From the NCBI GenBank assembly GCA_024228115.1, contig JAAETT010000694.1, positions 1 through 33,944 on the forward strand: a stretch of DNA of 33,944 bases, written 5' to 3'. The notes below the pieces were generated by a model. That model was not told the DNA's origin and did no database searches. It saw only the letters and a list, made by a program, of their open reading frames with translations. The stretch is from a bacterium. GTDB taxonomy: Bacteria; Myxococcota_A; UBA9160; UBA6930. A program made the translations under genes and the position numbers. Below are positions 4,583-16,060 of the stretch, one piece after another. Position 1 is the first letter of the stretch, and each line of letters opens with the position of its first letter.

Positions 4583-6022
4583 TCAGATCTCCAGCCCCAC
4601 GACCTCTCGTGCCCGCGCCTTGTAGGCAGCCACCGGTGCCTCGGCCATCAGCATCATCTTCTGGGAGGCCAGGGAGCCCTCGGCGTGAATGGTGCAGACC
4701 TCGTGCCAGCCGGAGAAATCACTCGCCACGAGATGGCGAAGAATGCTGAAGAGCTGCATACGCTCTGCCGCGCCGTAGGGTTCGGCGCCACCCATGTAGC
4801 GCTCGAGGTAGGGCTTCAGCTCCGGATGGTTCCAATCTCGATAGGTCGGTTGGGTGACCAGAAGGCCGCCGGCGATGTCCTGGATCGCCCGCACGAATTC
4901 GTGAAACCCAGAGGCAAAGTGCATCTTGGCCATGTTGGTCAGCAGCGGCTTCGCCACGTACAGGCCCGACCCATGGAACTCTTCGGGCTCGGAGAGCGCC
5001 GCGCGGGCGAGAGCCTTGGTGGTCTCGGTGTAGCGGATCATCTCGATGTAGCGATCGCGAATGTTCGAGGCCTTTTCGATCCCGTTCGATTCCGCCGCCA
5101 GCATGGCCATTCCGGTCATGTACTCGAGAATCGGGATCTTGTAGGTCACCGCCGTGAAGCGATGGAAGGCGCTGAACCCGTAGGCCACGGCCTGGCCCAG
5201 TTGCCACTCGCGGAGCAGGAAGACGCGCTCCTTGGGGACTCGCACCTCGTCGAAGATCACCAGCGATTCCACATGTCCGCGCTTCGGCCGCGGCGTCGGG
5301 AACGACATGTCGTCCTCGTAGCGGAAGTTGGGCCGGCAGATCTGCGTGAGGCCTGGGGTATCCACCGGGATCGCAAAGGCCACCGCGTAGTCGGCCTCGT
5401 CCTCATTGAGGTTCCGGGTCGGAATGACGAGGATCTCGTCCGTGTAAGCCGATGCCGTGATGTGCGCCTTGGCTCCGGAGACCACGATCTCATCGGCGGT
5501 TTCGTCGACGACGCGCAGGTAGTAGTCCGGGCTGCTTTGCTCGGAGGGTGACTTGCTGCGGTCGCCCTTCACGTCCGTCACCGCGCCGGCCAACGAGAGA
5601 TCGTTGCGGGCGCAGTACTGACGATAGTCAGCCAGGCGCCGCGCGTAGACCTCGTTCCCCGATGCCCGGGCGACTGCCGTGAGCCCGTTCAGGATGTCCG
5701 TTCCCACATCCTTGATGAAAGGAAGCGCCCCGTCTGCGTAGTGGCAGGCGGCCGACACGAGATCGAAGCGATAGCCCACGGCTTCCAGCCGCTCGGGCAT
5801 CTCGAAGTAGCGGCTCACGTCCTCCCCGGTCTCCGGATCCTTGCCGACGGCCAGTTCCGCATGAGCGGGATCGTGAGCCATCAAGTAGTCGAAGGCCCCC
5901 GTCTCGACACCCACCTTGATGTACGGATCTTCGGTCACGTCCTCGATCTCACGACCGGCCAGATAGACCTTGCGGCCGTCTCGCAGGCCCGCTTTGTATT
6001 GCTCGGCGGTTCGAAGCGCCAT
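4583..6022 (-). CDS. 4-hydroxybutyryl-CoA dehydratase/HpaB-family flavoprotein without Fe-S ligands
   Basis: 479 aa flavoprotein of the 4-hydroxyphenylacetate 3-hydroxylase/4-hydroxybutyryl-CoA dehydratase (AbfD) family. The start at 6022 is fixed by GAAGGAGAAG just upstream; the longer frame adds 18 unrelated residues. It follows the Clostridium AbfD sequence as I recall it through many blocks: TDVKGDRSKSPSEQ (150-163), SGAKAH (182-187), DEVRVPKER (258-266), DIAGGLLVTQP. The [4Fe-4S] ligands of AbfD are mostly lost: Cys99 aligns with Pro101, Cys103 with Asp105, Cys299 with Tyr294; only His292 is kept (His287). So a classical radical dehydratase is unlikely. A flavin-only hydroxylase, dehydrogenase or isomerase on a CoA ester is possible. 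It is the last gene of a TetR/ACAD/SDR operon. No separate flavin reductase was seen nearby. Confidence 0.8.
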   Translation of the reverse strand: MALRTAEQYKAGLRDGRKVYLAGREIEDVTEDPYIKVGVETGAFDYLMAHDPAHAELAVGKDPETGEDVSRYFEMPERLEAVGYRFDLVSAACHYADGALPFIKDVGTDILNGLTAVARASGNEVYARRLADYRQYCARNDLSLAGAVTDVKGDRSKSPSEQSSPDYYLRVVDETADEIVVSGAKAHITASAYTDEILVIPTRNLNEDEADYAVAFAIPVDTPGLTQICRPNFRYEDDMSFPTPRPKRGHVESLVIFDEVRVPKERVFLLREWQLGQAVAYGFSAFHRFTAVTYKIPILEYMTGMAMLAAESNGIEKASNIRDRYIEMIRYTETTKALARAALSEPEEFHGSGLYVAKPLLTNMAKMHFASGFHEFVRAIQDIAGGLLVTQPTYRDWNHPELKPYLERYMGGAEPYGAAERMQLFSILRHLVASDFSGWHEVCTIHAEGSLASQKMMLMAEAPVAAYKARAREVVGLEI

Positions 6023-6050: not shown

Positions 6051-7148
6051 TCAGGTGGTGGTCTGTCGCCAGTCACCCTTGCGGATGCGCGGATCCGCCG
6101 CGTGCTTCATGAAGTAGTCGACCATCACGTCGAGATACGACTGCACCCGCGGGCACTCGACCCCGTGCTTGGCGAGGATGGGGGCGACCTGGCTCCGGTC
6201 GAACGTCGCCGAGACGTAGGAATGCTCAAAGGCTTCCCGCGGCACGCCGGTCACTTTCTCGAAGCCCGGCAGGCGTCCCATCGGACGCATCATGCCAGCT
6301 GGGAGCTTCAGCAGCGGCTTTCGCTTGCCCATCGCTGCAGACGCCAGATCGAAGAACTCGTTGTAGGTCACAGGCTCCGGATCGACGAGGTGAAACACCT
6401 TTCCGATCGAGTCTTCGTCCTCGAAGAGGTGGTAGAAAGCGTCCGCGATGAAATCGACGGGGGCGAAGTGAAAGAGGGTGTCCTTCGTATCCGGAACGAT
6501 GTAGTGCATGCCGCGGGCGATCATCCCGAGCGCGTAGTACGGCCCGTCGATCTTCTCGATGGCACCTGTCTTGGAATGACCCACGACCGTGGTGGGCCGG
6601 AGGATCACCGAGGGAATGTCGTCACGCCGTTCGCGCACGAGCTTCTCGGCCAGGTGTTTCGTCAAGTCGTAGTTGGTCTCGAACTCCTGCCCCAGGTCGA
6701 GATCGTCCTCGCGAAACGTCCCCATATGCTTGCCTGCAACGGCAATCGTGCTGGCGTATCCCAACCGCTCGAGGGACGGGAACTGCGCAATCAAGTCGAG
6801 CAGGTTTCGGGTTCCGTCCACGTTGACGCGCATCGAGATATCCCGCGGCGCCGAAAGGTTGTAGAGCGCCGCGAGATGGATGACATGGGTCACGCGCTGC
6901 TTCAGCTCATCCTGGATGGCGACCTCGAGGCCCAGGCCCGGCTCCGCGATGTCCCCGGCGAAGGCCTTCAGCCGTTTGCGTTGCTCCGGGTCGGATACCT
7001 GCTCATCCAGGTAGGCCTCGAGACGTTCCTGGAAGCGACCGTTCTCCAGCAGGTAGATGTCGCAATCTTCCTTCTCGAGATAGTGCGAGAGGATGTACCT
7101 CCCGATGAAGCCGCCGGTACCGGTGCAGAAGACTGCTTTCTCACTCAT
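6051..7148 (-). CDS. Extended SDR, thioester-reductase/acyl-CoA reductase-like
   Basis: 365 aa NAD(P)-dependent extended short-chain dehydrogenase. The nucleotide-binding motif TGTGGFIG is at residues 9-16, the acidic segment GDIAEPGLGL at 65-74, and the catalytic residues are Ser133 in YAST with Tyr160-x3-Lys164. Motif HLAALYNLSAP and the later GPYYALG...D blocks resemble thioester-reductase and fatty acyl-CoA reductase N-domains rather than sugar epimerases. It may reduce an acyl-CoA to an aldehyde/alcohol or act as a hydroxysteroid-type dehydrogenase. It lies 46 bases after the acyl-CoA dehydrogenase and 28 before the flavoprotein start, within one leftward operon. Its ribosome site (GCGAGAACC) is weak. 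Confidence 0.75.
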   Translation of the reverse strand: MSEKAVFCTGTGGFIGRYILSHYLEKEDCDIYLLENGRFQERLEAYLDEQVSDPEQRKRLKAFAGDIAEPGLGLEVAIQDELKQRVTHVIHLAALYNLSAPRDISMRVNVDGTRNLLDLIAQFPSLERLGYASTIAVAGKHMGTFREDDLDLGQEFETNYDLTKHLAEKLVRERRDDIPSVILRPTTVVGHSKTGAIEKIDGPYYALGMIARGMHYIVPDTKDTLFHFAPVDFIADAFYHLFEDEDSIGKVFHLVDPEPVTYNEFFDLASAAMGKRKPLLKLPAGMMRPMGRLPGFEKVTGVPREAFEHSYVSATFDRSQVAPILAKHGVECPRVQSYLDVMVDYFMKHAADPRIRKGDWRQTTT

Positions 7149-9278: not shown

Positions 9279-10064
9279 ATGGAGTCCTCGGTGCTCACGT
9301 GCGAAACCATTGACCGGGTTGCACGTATCACGATGCAGAACCCGCCCGCGAATGCACTGGACCCGCAGATGCTCGAGCTGCTCGAAACGACGCTTGAGAG
9401 CGTATCCGCGAGCGGGGAGGCCCGGGCCGTCGTTCTGCGCAGCGGCTGCCCGGGCTTCTTCTCGGCTGGGGATGACATCGAGCAGTTGCGCGAGATGGAC
9501 CCCGCTCTTCTCGATCTCCTGCCGCGGCTCCACCAGTTGATGGATACGCTGGAATCCTTCCCGCTGCCGACGATCGCTGCGATCAACGGCCATGCGTTGG
9601 GCGGCGGTCTCGAACTGGCCCTGGCCTGTGATCTCCGCTTCATGGGTAGCGGCTCCGGGCGCAGCGGCCTGCCCGAAGTGAGGATCGGGATGATCCCTGC
9701 GTTCGGCGGGACCCAGCGCCTACCGATCCTGATTGGAAAGGGGCGCGCTCTGGAGATGATGTTCAAGGGGCTCCAGCTGGAGCCGGAAGAAGCCGAGCGA
9801 TGCGGCCTGGTCAACGGCGTGCATCCGCAATCCGAGCTGGAGGAACGCGTGCAGGACTACGCCGCCCGCCTGGCGTGCCAGGCAACGGGTGCCATCGCCA
9901 GGATCAAGCGCTGCGTGAACACAGGCCTCTACGAGGGCTTGAAGGAGGGCCTCGCCGAGGAGCGCAAGGCCTGCGTCGACAACTTCTCTACGCCGGATGC
10001 CCGGGAGGGAATCGATGCCTTCCTCACCGGAAGGAAGCCCCATTTCACGGGCTCCCAAGGATAG
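9279..10064 (+). CDS. Enoyl-CoA hydratase/isomerase family protein
   Basis: 261 aa crotonase-fold protein adding water to 2-enoyl-CoA esters (or an isomerase/hydrolase variant). Oxyanion-hole segments are SAGDDIEQL (62-70) and NGHALGGGLELALACD (103-118). Both hydratase glutamates are present, Glu112 and Glu133 (in GLPEV), followed by GMIPAFGGTQRLP. It therefore looks like an active hydratase. The ATG at 9279 is preceded by AGGGAGG; the longer upstream frame overlaps the tetR gene and was discarded. First gene of a rightward operon with the zinc dehydrogenase (9-base gap) and CoA-transferase. Confidence 0.9.
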   Translation: MESSVLTCETIDRVARITMQNPPANALDPQMLELLETTLESVSASGEARAVVLRSGCPGFFSAGDDIEQLREMDPALLDLLPRLHQLMDTLESFPLPTIAAINGHALGGGLELALACDLRFMGSGSGRSGLPEVRIGMIPAFGGTQRLPILIGKGRALEMMFKGLQLEPEEAERCGLVNGVHPQSELEERVQDYAARLACQATGAIARIKRCVNTGLYEGLKEGLAEERKACVDNFSTPDAREGIDAFLTGRKPHFTGSQG

Positions 10065-10073
10065 GAGTGAGGA

Positions 10074-11116
10074 GTGACGAAGATCCGAAGAGCGAGGCTA
10101 CGAGAGACGGGCTTGGCCGAAGACCTCGCTATCGAGGAACTCGAAGAATCTGGCCCGCCGCTCGAGGGAGAGCAGGTCGAGACCGAAGTCGAAGCCTGTG
10201 GCGTGTGCTACCGCGACACGATCGACCGAGAAGGAGGCTTCCCGTTCATCCGGCTGCCCATCACGCCCGGACATGAGGTCGTGGGACACGTCGCCGCCAT
10301 CGGCCCCGACGTCGCGGATTGGAAACCGGGAGACCGCATCGCGACGCTGCATTGCGATTTCTGTGGAAGCTGCGCTCGCTGCCACGAAGGCGAGGAATCG
10401 ATGTGCACGGGAACCGGTGCGATGCCGGGCCTGTTGATCGACGGCGGTTATGCGACACGCATGCGCGCCCCCCAGCGGGGGTTCTTCCGGGTGCCTGAAT
10501 ACTTGCCCCCTGCATTGGCCGCCGTGATGCATTGTACCTTCGGCACGGCCTACCGCGGCCTGCAGCGCTGCGGCGGCGTGGGCTCGGAAAGCCACGTGCT
10601 CGTAACGGGCGCCAACGGTGGCGTGGGGGTCGCCGCGATCCAGGTTGCGAAGCGGCTCGGTGCCAGGGTTAGCGCCGTCATCCGCGACGAACGTCACGAA
10701 GCCTTCCTGCAGGAGCTCGGCGCCGATGTGATCATCGTGGATCCGGGCGACGGCTTTCACAAGAAGCTGAAAGAGGAGAAAGCCGACGTGGTGCTCGACT
10801 GCGTAGGCCCCCCACCTTCAACGCCTCCTTGCGATCCCTCCGGACCGGAGGCCACATGGTGGTGATCGGCAACGTCGTCCAGGAGAAGGTTTCCCTGAAC
10901 CTGGGGTACCTGGTCGCCAGCGGAGTCCAACTGCTCGGCAGCAGCGGCGCCAGCCGCCGACATATGAAGGATGTCTTCGAACTGCACACCCGAGCCCCGT
11001 TCGAAGTCCACATCCACGAGTGCCTCGACATTTCCGAGGCAGATCGAGCCCAGCGCACGGTGCGCGCGGGCGGCCTACGGGGCGTGCTCATGCCCACCCC
11101 GTCCAATGCACGGTAG
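10074..11116 (+). pseudogene. Zinc alcohol dehydrogenase/acryloyl-CoA reductase-like gene with a frameshift
   Basis: Medium-chain dehydrogenase split by a one-base shift. Frame 1 (10074-10865, GTG start after AGGAGTGAGGA) gives catalytic Cys42 and His67, structural-zinc cysteines 97, 100, 103 and 111, and the nucleotide loop GANGGVGVAAIQ. It then runs into PPPSTPPCDPSG and stops. The missing C-terminus (TFNASLRSL...GNVVQEKVSLNLGYL) continues in the -1 frame to 11116. The switch falls in the C6 run at 10808-10813; a seventh C restores a 347 aa protein, normal for the family. The restored join (PPTFNASLRSL) resembles the archaeal acryloyl-CoA reductase block TPTFDESLKSL as I recall it. Causes could be a sequencing error, a real mutation, or -1 slippage at C-CCC-CCA. 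The operon position suggests reduction of an enoyl-CoA or a related alcohol/aldehyde. Confidence 0.8.
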
Positions 11117-11138
11117 AATCGCGAAGAAGGAGAACCCC

Positions 11139-12359
11139 ATGACCTCCCCCCTGGCCGGAGTTCGCGTCGTCGAGGTAGCCAACTACGTGGCCATCCCTGC
11201 GGCGGCAACCATGCTGGCAGACCTCGGTGCGGAGGTCATCAAGGTCGAACTTCCCCCCAATGGCGAGCTCTACCGGCGATCGCGGCCGGCCTTCGCCGGC
11301 TACGACTGCGACTTCCCGGAGAACCCCGCCTTTCATATGGACAACCGCGGCAAGCGGACCTTGATGCTGGACCTCAAACGCCCCGAGGCACAAGACGCAC
11401 TGGCACGGCTCATCGACCGCTCGGAGATCTTCCTCACCAACCTGCTGCCCCGACGGCGAGCTGCCTACGGGGTCGACCACGCGAAGCTGCTCGAACGGCA
11501 TCCGGAGCTGATCGTGGGAGCGATCAACGGCTACGGCGGCGGCGGCGAGCAAGCGGACTGGCCGGCATTCGACTACACCGCCTATTGGGCACGCACCGGG
11601 ATGATGGACCTGATGCACGACGAGGGGCGTGAGCCTTCCATGATGCGCGCGGCCATGGGCGATCACGCCGCGGCCTCCAATCTGGTGTGCGGAATCCTTG
11701 CCGCCATGCGGCTGCGGGATGCAGACGGTCAGGGCCGCTACGTCGAGACGTCCCTGATGCAGACCGGCTTCCACATCCTGGGGACCGATGTCGCCACCGC
11801 ACTCGTCACCCGCGAGCCCGTCCCCCGCCACGACCGGTTGCGGCCAAACAACCCGCTCTGGAACAGCTACCCGGTAGCGGGAGGGCGCTGGCTCTTGCTG
11901 GTAATGATCGATCCGGAGCGTTATTGGCCGAAGCTCTGCAGCGCACTGGAGCGCGAGGAGCTGTTGGATGACGAGCGCTTCGCGGATCCCTTCACGCGAG
12001 TGCAGAATTCCGAAGCGCTCGTCGCGGAACTCGACGCCACCTTCGCGAAGAAGGATCTCGATGCGTGGAAACCCCTGTTGGATGCAGCGGGCCTGATCTG
12101 GGCACCGGTCAATCGCATCGACGAAGCCATCAACGATCCCCAGGCACGAGCCATGGGCTACTTCTACCCGATCGAGCACGCCGAGGCGGGAACGTTCGAG
12201 ACCGTCGCGACACCATTTCGCATCGAAGGCCAGGAGCTGGGAGCACGCAATGCGGCCTCACCAATCGCTCGGGACGGACGGGAAATCCTCAGGGAAGCGG
12301 GCTTGCACGAAAGTCAGATCAAGGATCTGCTGATCGAACCGGCTCAAGGCCCGGCCTGA
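11139..12359 (+). CDS. Class III CoA-transferase (CaiB/BaiF family)
   Basis: 406 aa formyl-CoA transferase/CaiB-type enzyme that moves CoA between carboxylic acids. The N-terminus has the family signature LAGVRVVEVANYVA and LADLGAEVIKVE (27-38). The nucleophilic Asp is Asp165 in AAMGDHAAA. The later IWAPVNRIDEAINDPQARAMGYF block is the usual C-terminal signature. The ATG at 11139 follows GAAGAAGGAGAA and begins 22 bases after the dehydrogenase C-terminal reading frame ends. It probably activates the substrate acid of the locus or recycles CoA from the product. Donor and acceptor are not predictable. Confidence 0.9.
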   Translation: MTSPLAGVRVVEVANYVAIPAAATMLADLGAEVIKVELPPNGELYRRSRPAFAGYDCDFPENPAFHMDNRGKRTLMLDLKRPEAQDALARLIDRSEIFLTNLLPRRRAAYGVDHAKLLERHPELIVGAINGYGGGGEQADWPAFDYTAYWARTGMMDLMHDEGREPSMMRAAMGDHAAASNLVCGILAAMRLRDADGQGRYVETSLMQTGFHILGTDVATALVTREPVPRHDRLRPNNPLWNSYPVAGGRWLLLVMIDPERYWPKLCSALEREELLDDERFADPFTRVQNSEALVAELDATFAKKDLDAWKPLLDAAGLIWAPVNRIDEAINDPQARAMGYFYPIEHAEAGTFETVATPFRIEGQELGARNAASPIARDGREILREAGLHESQIKDLLIEPAQGPA

Positions 12360-13222: not shown

Positions 13223-13636
13223 TCATTCGGCCGACCCTCGCGCCAGACGTTCGATGGTTGCGACGATCTCAGTGCTCGGGGTGGTTGGGCCAAAGGCCGC
13301 CGCAACGCCCTTGGTCTGGATCGCCCGTGCGTCGTCTGCTGTGACGACCGAACCCCCGACGACGATGGGGGCCTCGACATCCTGCTCGCGAAGCGCCGCC
13401 TGAAGTGGATCGAGAAAGTGCAGATACTCCCACGAATGGCAGGAGAGGCCGACGACGTCGACGCCTTCCTCAGCGGCGGCCCTCGCGATGTCTTCGGGCA
13501 TGTTGAAGCGGCCCAGATAGACCACTTCCATTCCGGCATCGCGTAGGAGGCGCGCCACGGCCATGGCTCCCACCTCGTGCTGATCCAGTCCGAGGATTCC
13601 GAGCAGCACCCGAATCGGTCGCATGGCGTCGGACAT
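13223..13636 (-). CDS. B12-binding small subunit of acyl-CoA mutase
   Basis: 137 aa cobalamin-binding domain of the methylmalonyl-CoA mutase type. It has the base-off/His-on motif DQHEVG (18-23) with His20 as the lower cobalt ligand, GLSCHSW near residue 63 and VVGGS near 92. Separate small subunits of this size occur in isobutyryl-CoA and 2-hydroxyisobutyryl-CoA mutases (IcmB, HcmB). Its ATG overlaps the large-subunit stop by one base (TGATG), so the two are co-translated and should form one enzyme. Confidence 0.92.
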   Translation of the reverse strand: MSDAMRPIRVLLGILGLDQHEVGAMAVARLLRDAGMEVVYLGRFNMPEDIARAAAEEGVDVVGLSCHSWEYLHFLDPLQAALREQDVEAPIVVGGSVVTADDARAIQTKGVAAAFGPTTPSTEIVATIERLARGSAE

Positions 13637-15240
13637 CAGATCGGATCCTCGAGCGATCCGAACGGGTCGGCGGGCTGGCCGTAGGCCATGCGCATGACGC
13701 CCGCCATCTCACCCATGGTGACCCCTGCCTCCGTGGCCGTGACGACGTCTCCCATCAGGTTGGCATCGCGGTCGGTGGCGCTTGCGTAGAGCGACTCGAG
13801 GGCTGCCTTCGCGCGGCCGGCATCCCTATGGGCACGATGCTCGCGAATGACGTCGATCCGCTCGCGGAAGGGCTCGATCTTTTCCTCTGCCACGTCGCGA
13901 AGCAGCAGATCCTCGTCCTCTGGAATCACATGTTCGTTGACGCCGACCTTGCGGAGCGTGCCGTCCTCCAACTCGCGGCCGTGACGCTCCATCGCCTCCT
14001 GGAAGATCCGCCGGAACCAACCCGTCTCGCAGAGATGGGCGGCGTCACCCGCCGCCTCGATCGCGCGTATCCGCTCCTCGATTCGACCCTCCATCTCGTC
14101 GGTCAGCGATTCCACGTAGTACGAGCCGGCCAGTGGGTCGGCCACCTGTGTCACACCGGTCTCCAGTTGGATGACCTGCTGCGTGCGCAGCCCGACCATA
14201 TGGGCCTCGGGGCTCGGGATCCGGTAGGCCTCATCGAACGTGGAGACTTCGATCGCCTGGGCGCTGGCCAGAGCCAGGGAGAGAGCCTGGGTGGTGCCCC
14301 GAACCACGTTGTTCACGGGCTGCTGGGCGGTGAGGGAGAGCCCCGAAGTATGCGCCGCCACGTTGACCGCCAGCGAACGCGGATCCCGGGCCCCGAACTC
14401 ATCGCGCATCATGCGTGCAAAGATCCGACGGGTGGCGCGGATCTTCGCGATCTCCTCGAAGAAGTCCATCCGACAGTTCACCAGGATGGCGATCCTCGGA
14501 GCGAAGGCGTCGATCTCGACGCCCCGTTCGAGAAGGGCTCGCACGATGCCGCGGATCTCGACGAAACCCAGAGCCATCTCCTCCACCGCATCGAGACCAC
14601 CGTCACTGATGTAGTAGGTGTCTTCGAGGAACGAGTGGAAGCGAGGCATTTCCTTGCTACAGAACGCAATCGAATCCACGGACAGACGGACGCGCAGATC
14701 GAAGGGCATATGCAGCGCGTAGCCGGTGTCCTCGCAGTAGAAGGGCACCTGGAGCACGGACCCCCGCAAGGCTGCTGGGGAGACACCCCGTTCCCTGGCC
14801 ACGCAATAGAGGCCGGCAATGGCGAATGCTGGCTGCAGGGAGTGCGAGAGCGATATCTCGTCCAGCGGAAGATCCCGATAGAGGTCACGGTAGTCATCCA
14901 GGCGACATAGCGACACGCCCTGCGTACCGACCGCGCGCACGGCGAACGGATGATCCGGATCCAGGCAAGCCATCGTGGGCGTATCCCCGATGACGTCGAG
15001 GCCCGTCTGTCCCTTCGACAGCAGATACTTGAATTGCGCGTTCGAGCGCGCGGGATCCCCCTCCCCCGAGAGTTCACGCTGGATCCATCCGCCCCGATCC
15101 TCCGGATGGGCGCGCACGCCCCGCGTGTAGGGAAAGCTACCGGGATCTCCCAGCCGTTCGTCCGACTTCCATCCTTCGAGATCGTCCGGGCCGTAGACCG
15201 GCTTCAAGGGAATTCCAGACTGGCTCTTTCGGTCTGTCAT
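13636..15240 (-). CDS. B12-dependent acyl-CoA mutase, large (TIM-barrel) subunit, atypical active site
   Basis: 534 aa substrate-binding subunit of the methylmalonyl-CoA mutase superfamily, which rearranges acyl-CoA carbon skeletons by a radical mechanism. Shared blocks are SFPYTRG (35-41), DPDHP, NCRMDFFEEIAKIRATRRIF, HTSGLSLTAQQPVNNVVR and DPLAGSYYVE. It has no fused B12 domain. By-eye comparison with remembered Propionibacterium MCM gives Tyr89 to Glu47 (ungapped from TRG to the SN pair), Arg207 to Gly173 and His244 to Tyr210. Those positions set substrate choice in MCM (Tyr/Arg), ICM (Phe/Gln) and HCM (Ile/Gln), so the substrate differs from all three. The ATG at 15240 was chosen with AGGA upstream; the longer frame overlaps the SDR. 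No MeaB-type chaperone gene is in the window. Confidence 0.88.
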   Translation of the reverse strand: MTDRKSQSGIPLKPVYGPDDLEGWKSDERLGDPGSFPYTRGVRAHPEDRGGWIQRELSGEGDPARSNAQFKYLLSKGQTGLDVIGDTPTMACLDPDHPFAVRAVGTQGVSLCRLDDYRDLYRDLPLDEISLSHSLQPAFAIAGLYCVARERGVSPAALRGSVLQVPFYCEDTGYALHMPFDLRVRLSVDSIAFCSKEMPRFHSFLEDTYYISDGGLDAVEEMALGFVEIRGIVRALLERGVEIDAFAPRIAILVNCRMDFFEEIAKIRATRRIFARMMRDEFGARDPRSLAVNVAAHTSGLSLTAQQPVNNVVRGTTQALSLALASAQAIEVSTFDEAYRIPSPEAHMVGLRTQQVIQLETGVTQVADPLAGSYYVESLTDEMEGRIEERIRAIEAAGDAAHLCETGWFRRIFQEAMERHGRELEDGTLRKVGVNEHVIPEDEDLLLRDVAEEKIEPFRERIDVIREHRAHRDAGRAKAALESLYASATDRDANLMGDVVTATEAGVTMGEMAGVMRMAYGQPADPFGSLEDPI

Positions 15241-15271
15241 GCGTCCTGTCTCCACTCGCCTCGCGTTTCGT

Positions 15272-16060
15272 TCACGAACCGGAACCGCGCAGTTCCTTGC
15301 GGCTACCCAACGTTCCGGTGTTGAGACTGAATCCACCATCGATCCGGATCTCCGCACCGTTGATGTAGCCCGCCTCGTCGGAGGCGAGAAAGGAAACCAG
15401 CGCGGCGACCTCCTGCATCCGACCGAGACGGCGGGCAGGGGTACTCACGATCGATGCGTTCCGGATCTCCGCGGGCATCGAAGCCACGGTCTCGGTCTCG
15501 ATCAAGCCGGGCAGGACGGCATTGCAGGTGATTCCATGGCGGGCGTGCTCGAGGGTGATGGACTTCGCCAGCCCCAGGAGCCCAGCCTTGCTGGCGGCGT
15601 AGCCGGCCTGACGATGCAGCCCACCGATCGCGGCCACGGAGGAGATCAACACGATCCGGCCATGGCCGGATTCGACCATTCCGGGCAGGACCGCCTGGAG
15701 CAAGTGGAAGGCGCCGCTCAGATTGACATCGAGTTCCCGGCTCCAACCCTCCGCGTGCATCTTCGTGACGGGAGCGATGTGATCGACGATGCCCGCGTTG
15801 CTGACCAGCACATCCACGACGCCAAGCGCATCGTGCGTTTGCCTCACCGCATCGCGCACCTCCTCTGGAGATGCGACATCGGCCACGACGCCAACGACCG
15901 GGAATCCTTCGGCCTGGAGATCTCCTGCCGTTTGGCTGACGGCGCCGTCGCGATCCGCCAGCGCGACCCGAGCACCTGCCTCGGCCAGACACCTGGCGAT
16001 CTGCCTACCAATTCCGCGCGCGGCACCAGTGACGAAGGCCGTTCGTCCTTCAAGGCGCAT
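15272..16060 (-). CDS. SDR-family oxidoreductase (FabG/hydroxyacyl-CoA dehydrogenase-like)
   Basis: 262 aa classical short-chain dehydrogenase. The cofactor motif TGAARGIG is at 11-18, an Asp after beta-strand 2 (ALADRD) suggests NAD(H), SNAG is at 87-90, and the catalytic residues are Ser141, Tyr154 and Lys158 (YAASK). The C-terminal INGAEIRIDGGF is typical of FabG-like enzymes. The ATG at 16060 has a strong site (GAGGGAGGGA). First gene of the leftward operon with the mutase subunits (31-base gap) and enoyl-CoA hydratase, so 3-hydroxyacyl-CoA oxidation is the likely role. Confidence 0.88.
   Translation of the reverse strand: MRLEGRTAFVTGAARGIGRQIARCLAEAGARVALADRDGAVSQTAGDLQAEGFPVVGVVADVASPEEVRDAVRQTHDALGVVDVLVSNAGIVDHIAPVTKMHAEGWSRELDVNLSGAFHLLQAVLPGMVESGHGRIVLISSVAAIGGLHRQAGYAASKAGLLGLAKSITLEHARHGITCNAVLPGLIETETVASMPAEIRNASIVSTPARRLGRMQEVAALVSFLASDEAGYINGAEIRIDGGFSLNTGTLGSRKELRGSGS

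Follow-up and report, generated by a model that had tools for sequence, protein, structure and literature searches.

4-Hydroxybutyryl-CoA dehydratase (4HBD) is the textbook enzyme that combines a flavin with a [4Fe-4S] cluster and forms a ketyl radical. The 4-hydroxyphenylacetate 3-monooxygenase HpaB (TIGR02309/02310; PDB 2yyg) has the same Pfam domains and fold and no iron-sulfur cluster. HpaB proteins carry GRSPDY and TH motifs, which presumably hold residues of the phenol site. Acyl-CoA dehydrogenases (ACADs) share the superfamily fold. The catalytic base is Glu376 in the J-K loop of MCAD and a helix-G glutamate in the isovaleryl-CoA and long-chain acyl-CoA dehydrogenases (IVD/LCAD); the two positions are topologically equivalent (PMC11153573). 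The gamma-butyrobetainyl-CoA TMA lyase BbuA, a flavin enzyme that acts on C4 of a CoA ester and needs no cluster, sets a precedent for such chemistry and was likened to 4HBD by its authors, at about 10% identity (PMC8364193). The comparison with BbuA made here, as another flavin enzyme acting on a CoA ester, is by description.

The window, a stretch of 33,944 nucleotides from a bacterium of the Myxococcota_A, encodes a further member of this family. An intact open reading frame of 479 amino acids runs on the minus strand from a start codon at 6022 to a stop codon at 4583-4585; the strand was absent from the preliminary description. HpaB_N (PF11794; 1.4e-73, 248 bits) and HpaB (PF03241; 5.2e-53, 180 bits) both scored above the gathering cut-off, which assigns the protein to the HpaB/4HBD family. 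Acyl-CoA_dh Pfam domains were not found in it. The top PDB relatives were the Clostridium 4HBD AbfD (1u8v, E 8.4e-64) and the 4HBD of N. maritimus (6vjr, 5.2e-60), and all HpaB-type oxygenases ranked below. The resemblance to AbfD along the whole length, previously seen by eye, was thus borne out, including the blocks KGDR, SGAKAH, DEVRVP and DIAGGLLVT. The proposed CoA-ester operon, with an ACAD and a thioester-type SDR beside the gene, was also recovered. The order is TetR, ACAD, SDR and the 4HBD-like gene, with a divergent enoyl-CoA hydratase, alcohol dehydrogenase and CoA transferase:

4583..6022, minus strand: flavoprotein of the HpaB/4HBD family, iron-sulfur-free branch, 479 aa (open reading frame, Pfam, PDB relatives, alignment, tree)
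6051..7148, minus strand: SDR of the thioester-reductase / NAD_binding_4 type, 365 aa
7195..8412, minus strand: acyl-CoA dehydrogenase, 405 aa
8378..9100, minus strand: TetR-family regulator, its gene overlapping the ACAD start and its own start codon approximate; kept beside clade A orthologues
9279..10064, plus strand: divergent enoyl-CoA hydratase
10074..10865, plus strand: zinc-type alcohol dehydrogenase, short open reading frame; in G376 it also adjoins the hydratase (59%)
11139..12359, plus strand: family III CoA transferase (CaiB/BaiF)

The hydratase is about 60% identical to the TetR-divergent one in G100 and G104, and orthologues are also present in G376 and G384. CoA transferases also flank the branch gene in L034 and in Rhodococcus opacus PD630. 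Within 10074-11138, the alcohol dehydrogenase frame stops early at 10865 and its tail looks unrelated; there may be a frameshift near 10800, either genuine or from assembly. A methylmalonyl-CoA mutase gene near the operon (13636-15357) fits a catabolism that yields propionyl-CoA.

In 4HBD, three cysteines and one histidine ligate the [4Fe-4S] cluster. This set is incomplete in the 479-aa protein. In locally ungapped alignments, AbfD C103, H292 and C299 correspond to D105, H287 and Y294. The counterpart of C99 is P101 in the ungapped reading or A99 in the MAFFT alignment, neither of them a cluster ligand. The alignment therefore agrees with the preliminary description that three of the four ligand positions are occupied by residues other than cysteine and that His287 alone is kept. 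Shifted cysteines that might compensate were looked for in the alignments, and none is nearby. We infer a flavin-only cofactor content. Two further substitutions had been overlooked. AbfD E455, a glutamate in all rows of the alignment with the ligand set C, C, H, C, is replaced by C443 in the window protein and by Leu in clades B and C. The Ala of the AbfD HGAGS motif (about A459) is replaced by E448. The residues concerned are:

5708..5713, minus strand: K104-D105; Lys invariant, Asp or Glu at the AbfD C103 position (alignments)
5720..5722, minus strand: P101, ungapped counterpart of AbfD C99; Pro or Ile within the branch, not conserved (alignments)
5162..5164, minus strand: H287, equivalent to AbfD H292; most profile alignments place it where isovaleryl-CoA/long-chain acyl-CoA dehydrogenases have their helix-G base (alignment, profiles)
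5141..5143, minus strand: Y294, aligned to AbfD C299 and shared by all branch members (alignments)
4679..4681, minus strand: E448 of the HAEGS motif, present in every branch member; aligned to the catalytic Glu of acyl-CoA dehydrogenases (alignment, profile-profile alignment)

The same fingerprint recurs in relatives. K104, D/E105, H187, H287, Y294, E448 and K455 are invariant in all 13 full-length branch members (40-73% identical to the window protein), so the missing ligands are more than chance. At the same columns, iron-sulfur members have C, C, H, C, E455 and an Ala in place of E448. None of the 24 other homologues that are readable at the E448 column has a Glu there; the row of HpaB 2yyg ends before this column and is outside the 24. 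A class-wide profile search gave the full-length branch members scores of more than 820 bits; the best non-members stayed under 372. Clade A (71-79% identical to the window protein, the 79% member being a partial sequence) comprises Myxococcota and one Desulfobacteraceae MAG. Clade B (43-46%) belongs to the same order as the window genome, and clade C (about 40%) is located on Rhodococcus plasmids. The open-access literature search yielded no description of this branch and no characterisation of a 4HBD without ligands, of Msed_1220 or of a Rhodococcus 4HBD.

The IQ-TREE analysis recovered the branch as monophyletic, with 13 sequences from Myxococcota, the sulfate reducer and Rhodococcus plasmids (support 96/93). 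It lies outside the iron-sulfur clade (100/100) and does not cluster closely with HpaB phenol hydroxylases. With the root placed on HpaB, it forms a sister lineage to the iron-sulfur enzymes. The statement that the ligands had been 'replaced' goes too far in this respect: with the branch beside the iron-sulfur clade and the root on cluster-free HpaB, a cluster loss is not demonstrated, and a gain of the cluster in 4HBD is the alternative. Within the iron-sulfur clade, true loss apparently occurs too: L019 (G033) lacks two of the Cys, with G, S, H and C at the four ligand positions, and keeps E455. A third Cys-less group, 'EE', is supported by 100/99; this subfamily (L012, L013, L014, L017 and L020) has Glu in place of AbfD His292, and AGGG where the branch has AEGS. 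By the features tested, the 479-aa protein is neither a 4HBD nor an HpaB. Judged from its sequence, the 4583-6022 product is a member of a small, distinct flavoenzyme branch, mostly located in operons for the degradation of CoA-linked acids.

The acyl-CoA dehydrogenases provide a second comparison. The window protein is only remotely homologous to them (about 14-15% identity) and differs by its HpaB-type domains and its length of 479 aa. It has the superfamily fold, by profile and Foldseek, and the CoA-ester context in common with them. E448 is located in the motif HAEGSxxxxK. In hhalign comparisons with acyl-CoA dehydrogenases of the same genome, all runs that extended to the C-terminus aligned E448 with the catalytic Glu, although this profile alignment is partly driven by the EGS/EGT motif. 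With E448 masked, the catalytic-Glu register was recovered in one of two hhalign modes. The iron-sulfur 4HBD profile gave the same register over the full length and not with the C-terminal part alone. H287 fell on F261 of the window ACAD in most runs, and the PDB alignment pairs F261 with the Glu of the IVD LERL stretch, which we take to be IVD Glu254. By profile alignment, E448 would thus occupy the MCAD Glu376 position, with a matching EGS motif, and H287 the base position of IVD/LCAD, there as a His. AlphaFold models reached a pLDDT of 41.6 (3 alignment rows) and 57.6 (5 rows), with about 32 in the E448 region of the better one. This is too weak for active-site geometry, so that the placement of E448 is taken from the sequence profiles. 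The role of E448 could be structural. Foldseek with the weak model of pLDDT 57.6 ranked 4HBD first, then HpaB, then acyl-CoA dehydrogenases.

Gene neighbourhoods point to acyl-CoA catabolism for clade A. Other clade A loci encode a TetR regulator, an epimerase-type SDR, an SCP2-fused CoA ligase, the branch gene and an ALDH and/or SDR; the divergent enoyl-CoA hydratase occurs in four genomes. CoA ligase or transferase, aldehyde-oxidising enzymes, SDRs, enoyl-CoA hydratase and TetR are the neighbours that carry this view. An SCP2-fused ligase orthologue with both parts was not found in the window genome, which has dozens of ligase matches. In the Desulfobacteraceae MAG, an aldehyde ferredoxin oxidoreductase (AFOR) is located upstream of the orthologue in the same operon, and dsrA is encoded elsewhere in the genome. 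Clade C loci contain CoA ligases, a CaiB transferase, carboxylases, ACAD, thiolase and enoyl-CoA hydratase in sets that differ between loci. Clade B does not fit a simple catabolism. It is located beside surface-polysaccharide genes, an odd setting for a CoA-ester enzyme: an XrtA-type polysaccharide deacetylase and a GNAT in L037 and L039, a glycosyltransferase in L037, L038 and L041 and a methyltransferase in L037 and L041.

The 479-aa protein most likely works like an acyl-CoA flavoenzyme, as a dehydrogenase or double-bond isomerase, possibly as an eliminase. The more specific reading, a flavin-dependent enzyme of acyl-CoAs that lacks an iron-sulfur cluster, forms its own HpaB/4HBD branch and acts as a dehydrogenase or double-bond isomerase, is given an even chance. 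As in 4HBD and the acyl-CoA dehydrogenases, the acyl-CoA would bind above the flavin. E448 may abstract the alpha proton, possibly with help from H287, and the beta hydride would go to the flavin. The result would be an alpha,beta-dehydrogenation or a double-bond isomerisation. In the operon, an alcohol or aldehyde may be oxidised to the acid, activated to the CoA thioester and degraded by beta-oxidation-like steps. An ordinary ACAD is also present in the window operon and in two Rhodococcus loci, so the 479-aa enzyme probably performs a different step. Of the activities suggested at the outset, dehydrogenase and isomerase are favoured by the ACAD-type Glu in the profile alignments, and hydroxylase is disfavoured.

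Hydroxylation of a CoA ester or an aromatic compound with reduced flavin and O2 would require a two-component HpaB-like monooxygenase. The HpaB_N and HpaB domains are in line with this. Six matches to COX1-type haem-copper oxidases in the window genome make O2 respiration probable, and flavin reductases encoded elsewhere in the genomes could provide a distant partner. On the contig of the branch gene itself, no flavin reductase (PF01613) match was found in the window genome (G000) and seven other orthologue genomes. The GRSPDY and TH motifs are replaced by FIKDVGTD and AGAVTD. The nearest kin is 4HBD, and the scores for the NCBIfam equivalogs HpaB-1 (174 bits, cut-off 480) and HpaB-2 (129 bits, cut-off 885) are far below threshold, in agreement with the absence of HpaB-type motifs. 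The orthologue beside AFOR in a dsrA-bearing sulfate reducer also argues against a monooxygenase, which is considered unlikely.

An equally unlikely function is that of a flavin-only dehydratase or eliminase, 4HBD- or BbuA-like, on a gamma-substituted acyl-CoA. The 4HBD scaffold with its retained His would suit it, and BbuA catalyses a C4 elimination without a cluster (PMC8364193). The branch is set apart from 4HBD by the lack of an AbfD E455 counterpart and of the cluster ligands, by E448 and by its separate position in the tree; the KGDR and GAKAH blocks, the His at AbfD 292 and the CoA-ester neighbourhood are common to both. In clade A, the neighbourhood has no gene that would indicate a 4-hydroxy or 4-amino acid as the substrate.

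A mononuclear-metal flavoenzyme, with a single metal ion bound by D/E105, H287 and Y294 instead of the cluster, is less probable still. These three potential ligands, invariant apart from the D/E choice at the first, occupy three of the four cluster-ligand positions. The fourth position is variable (A/P, I, T), the invariant Lys next to D/E105 may simply form a salt bridge with it, and the models are too poor for distances. An inactive or decaying paralogue of 4HBD, as the three Cys-less ligand positions and the broken copy in a sibling genome might suggest, is very improbable: at 40-73% identity the fingerprint is invariant over Myxococcota, a sulfate reducer and Actinomycetota, and the clade A operon is conserved. 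This sibling, the same-genus genome G003, has only a 3' remnant (L043:8353-8454) with an in-frame stop; it lies next to the conserved patatin gene, which indicates that the locus was formerly present.

Tentatively, the branch may be a functional class of its own, the third in the HpaB/4HBD family. It would comprise flavin-only acyl-CoA oxidoreductases/isomerases that kept or regained the ACAD catalytic Glu on a 4HBD scaffold, possibly with one metal ion at the cluster site, and would bridge acyl-CoA dehydrogenases and radical iron-sulfur dehydratases. A natural cluster-free sister branch with an ACAD-type acid raises the questions of the purpose of the cluster and of how radical dehydration originated from ordinary acyl-CoA chemistry. 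For annotation, the ligand check shows that a 4HBD label is unsafe for calling carbon-fixation or GABA pathways; one record of R. opacus PD630 labels the branch gene as 4HBD. Viral contigs contained no branch member, only one full-length iron-sulfur 4HBD and one fragment. A full-length 4HBD relative with all four ligands (L100:1825-3270) is located close to the end of a 'viral' contig from IMG/VR and is probably host sequence.
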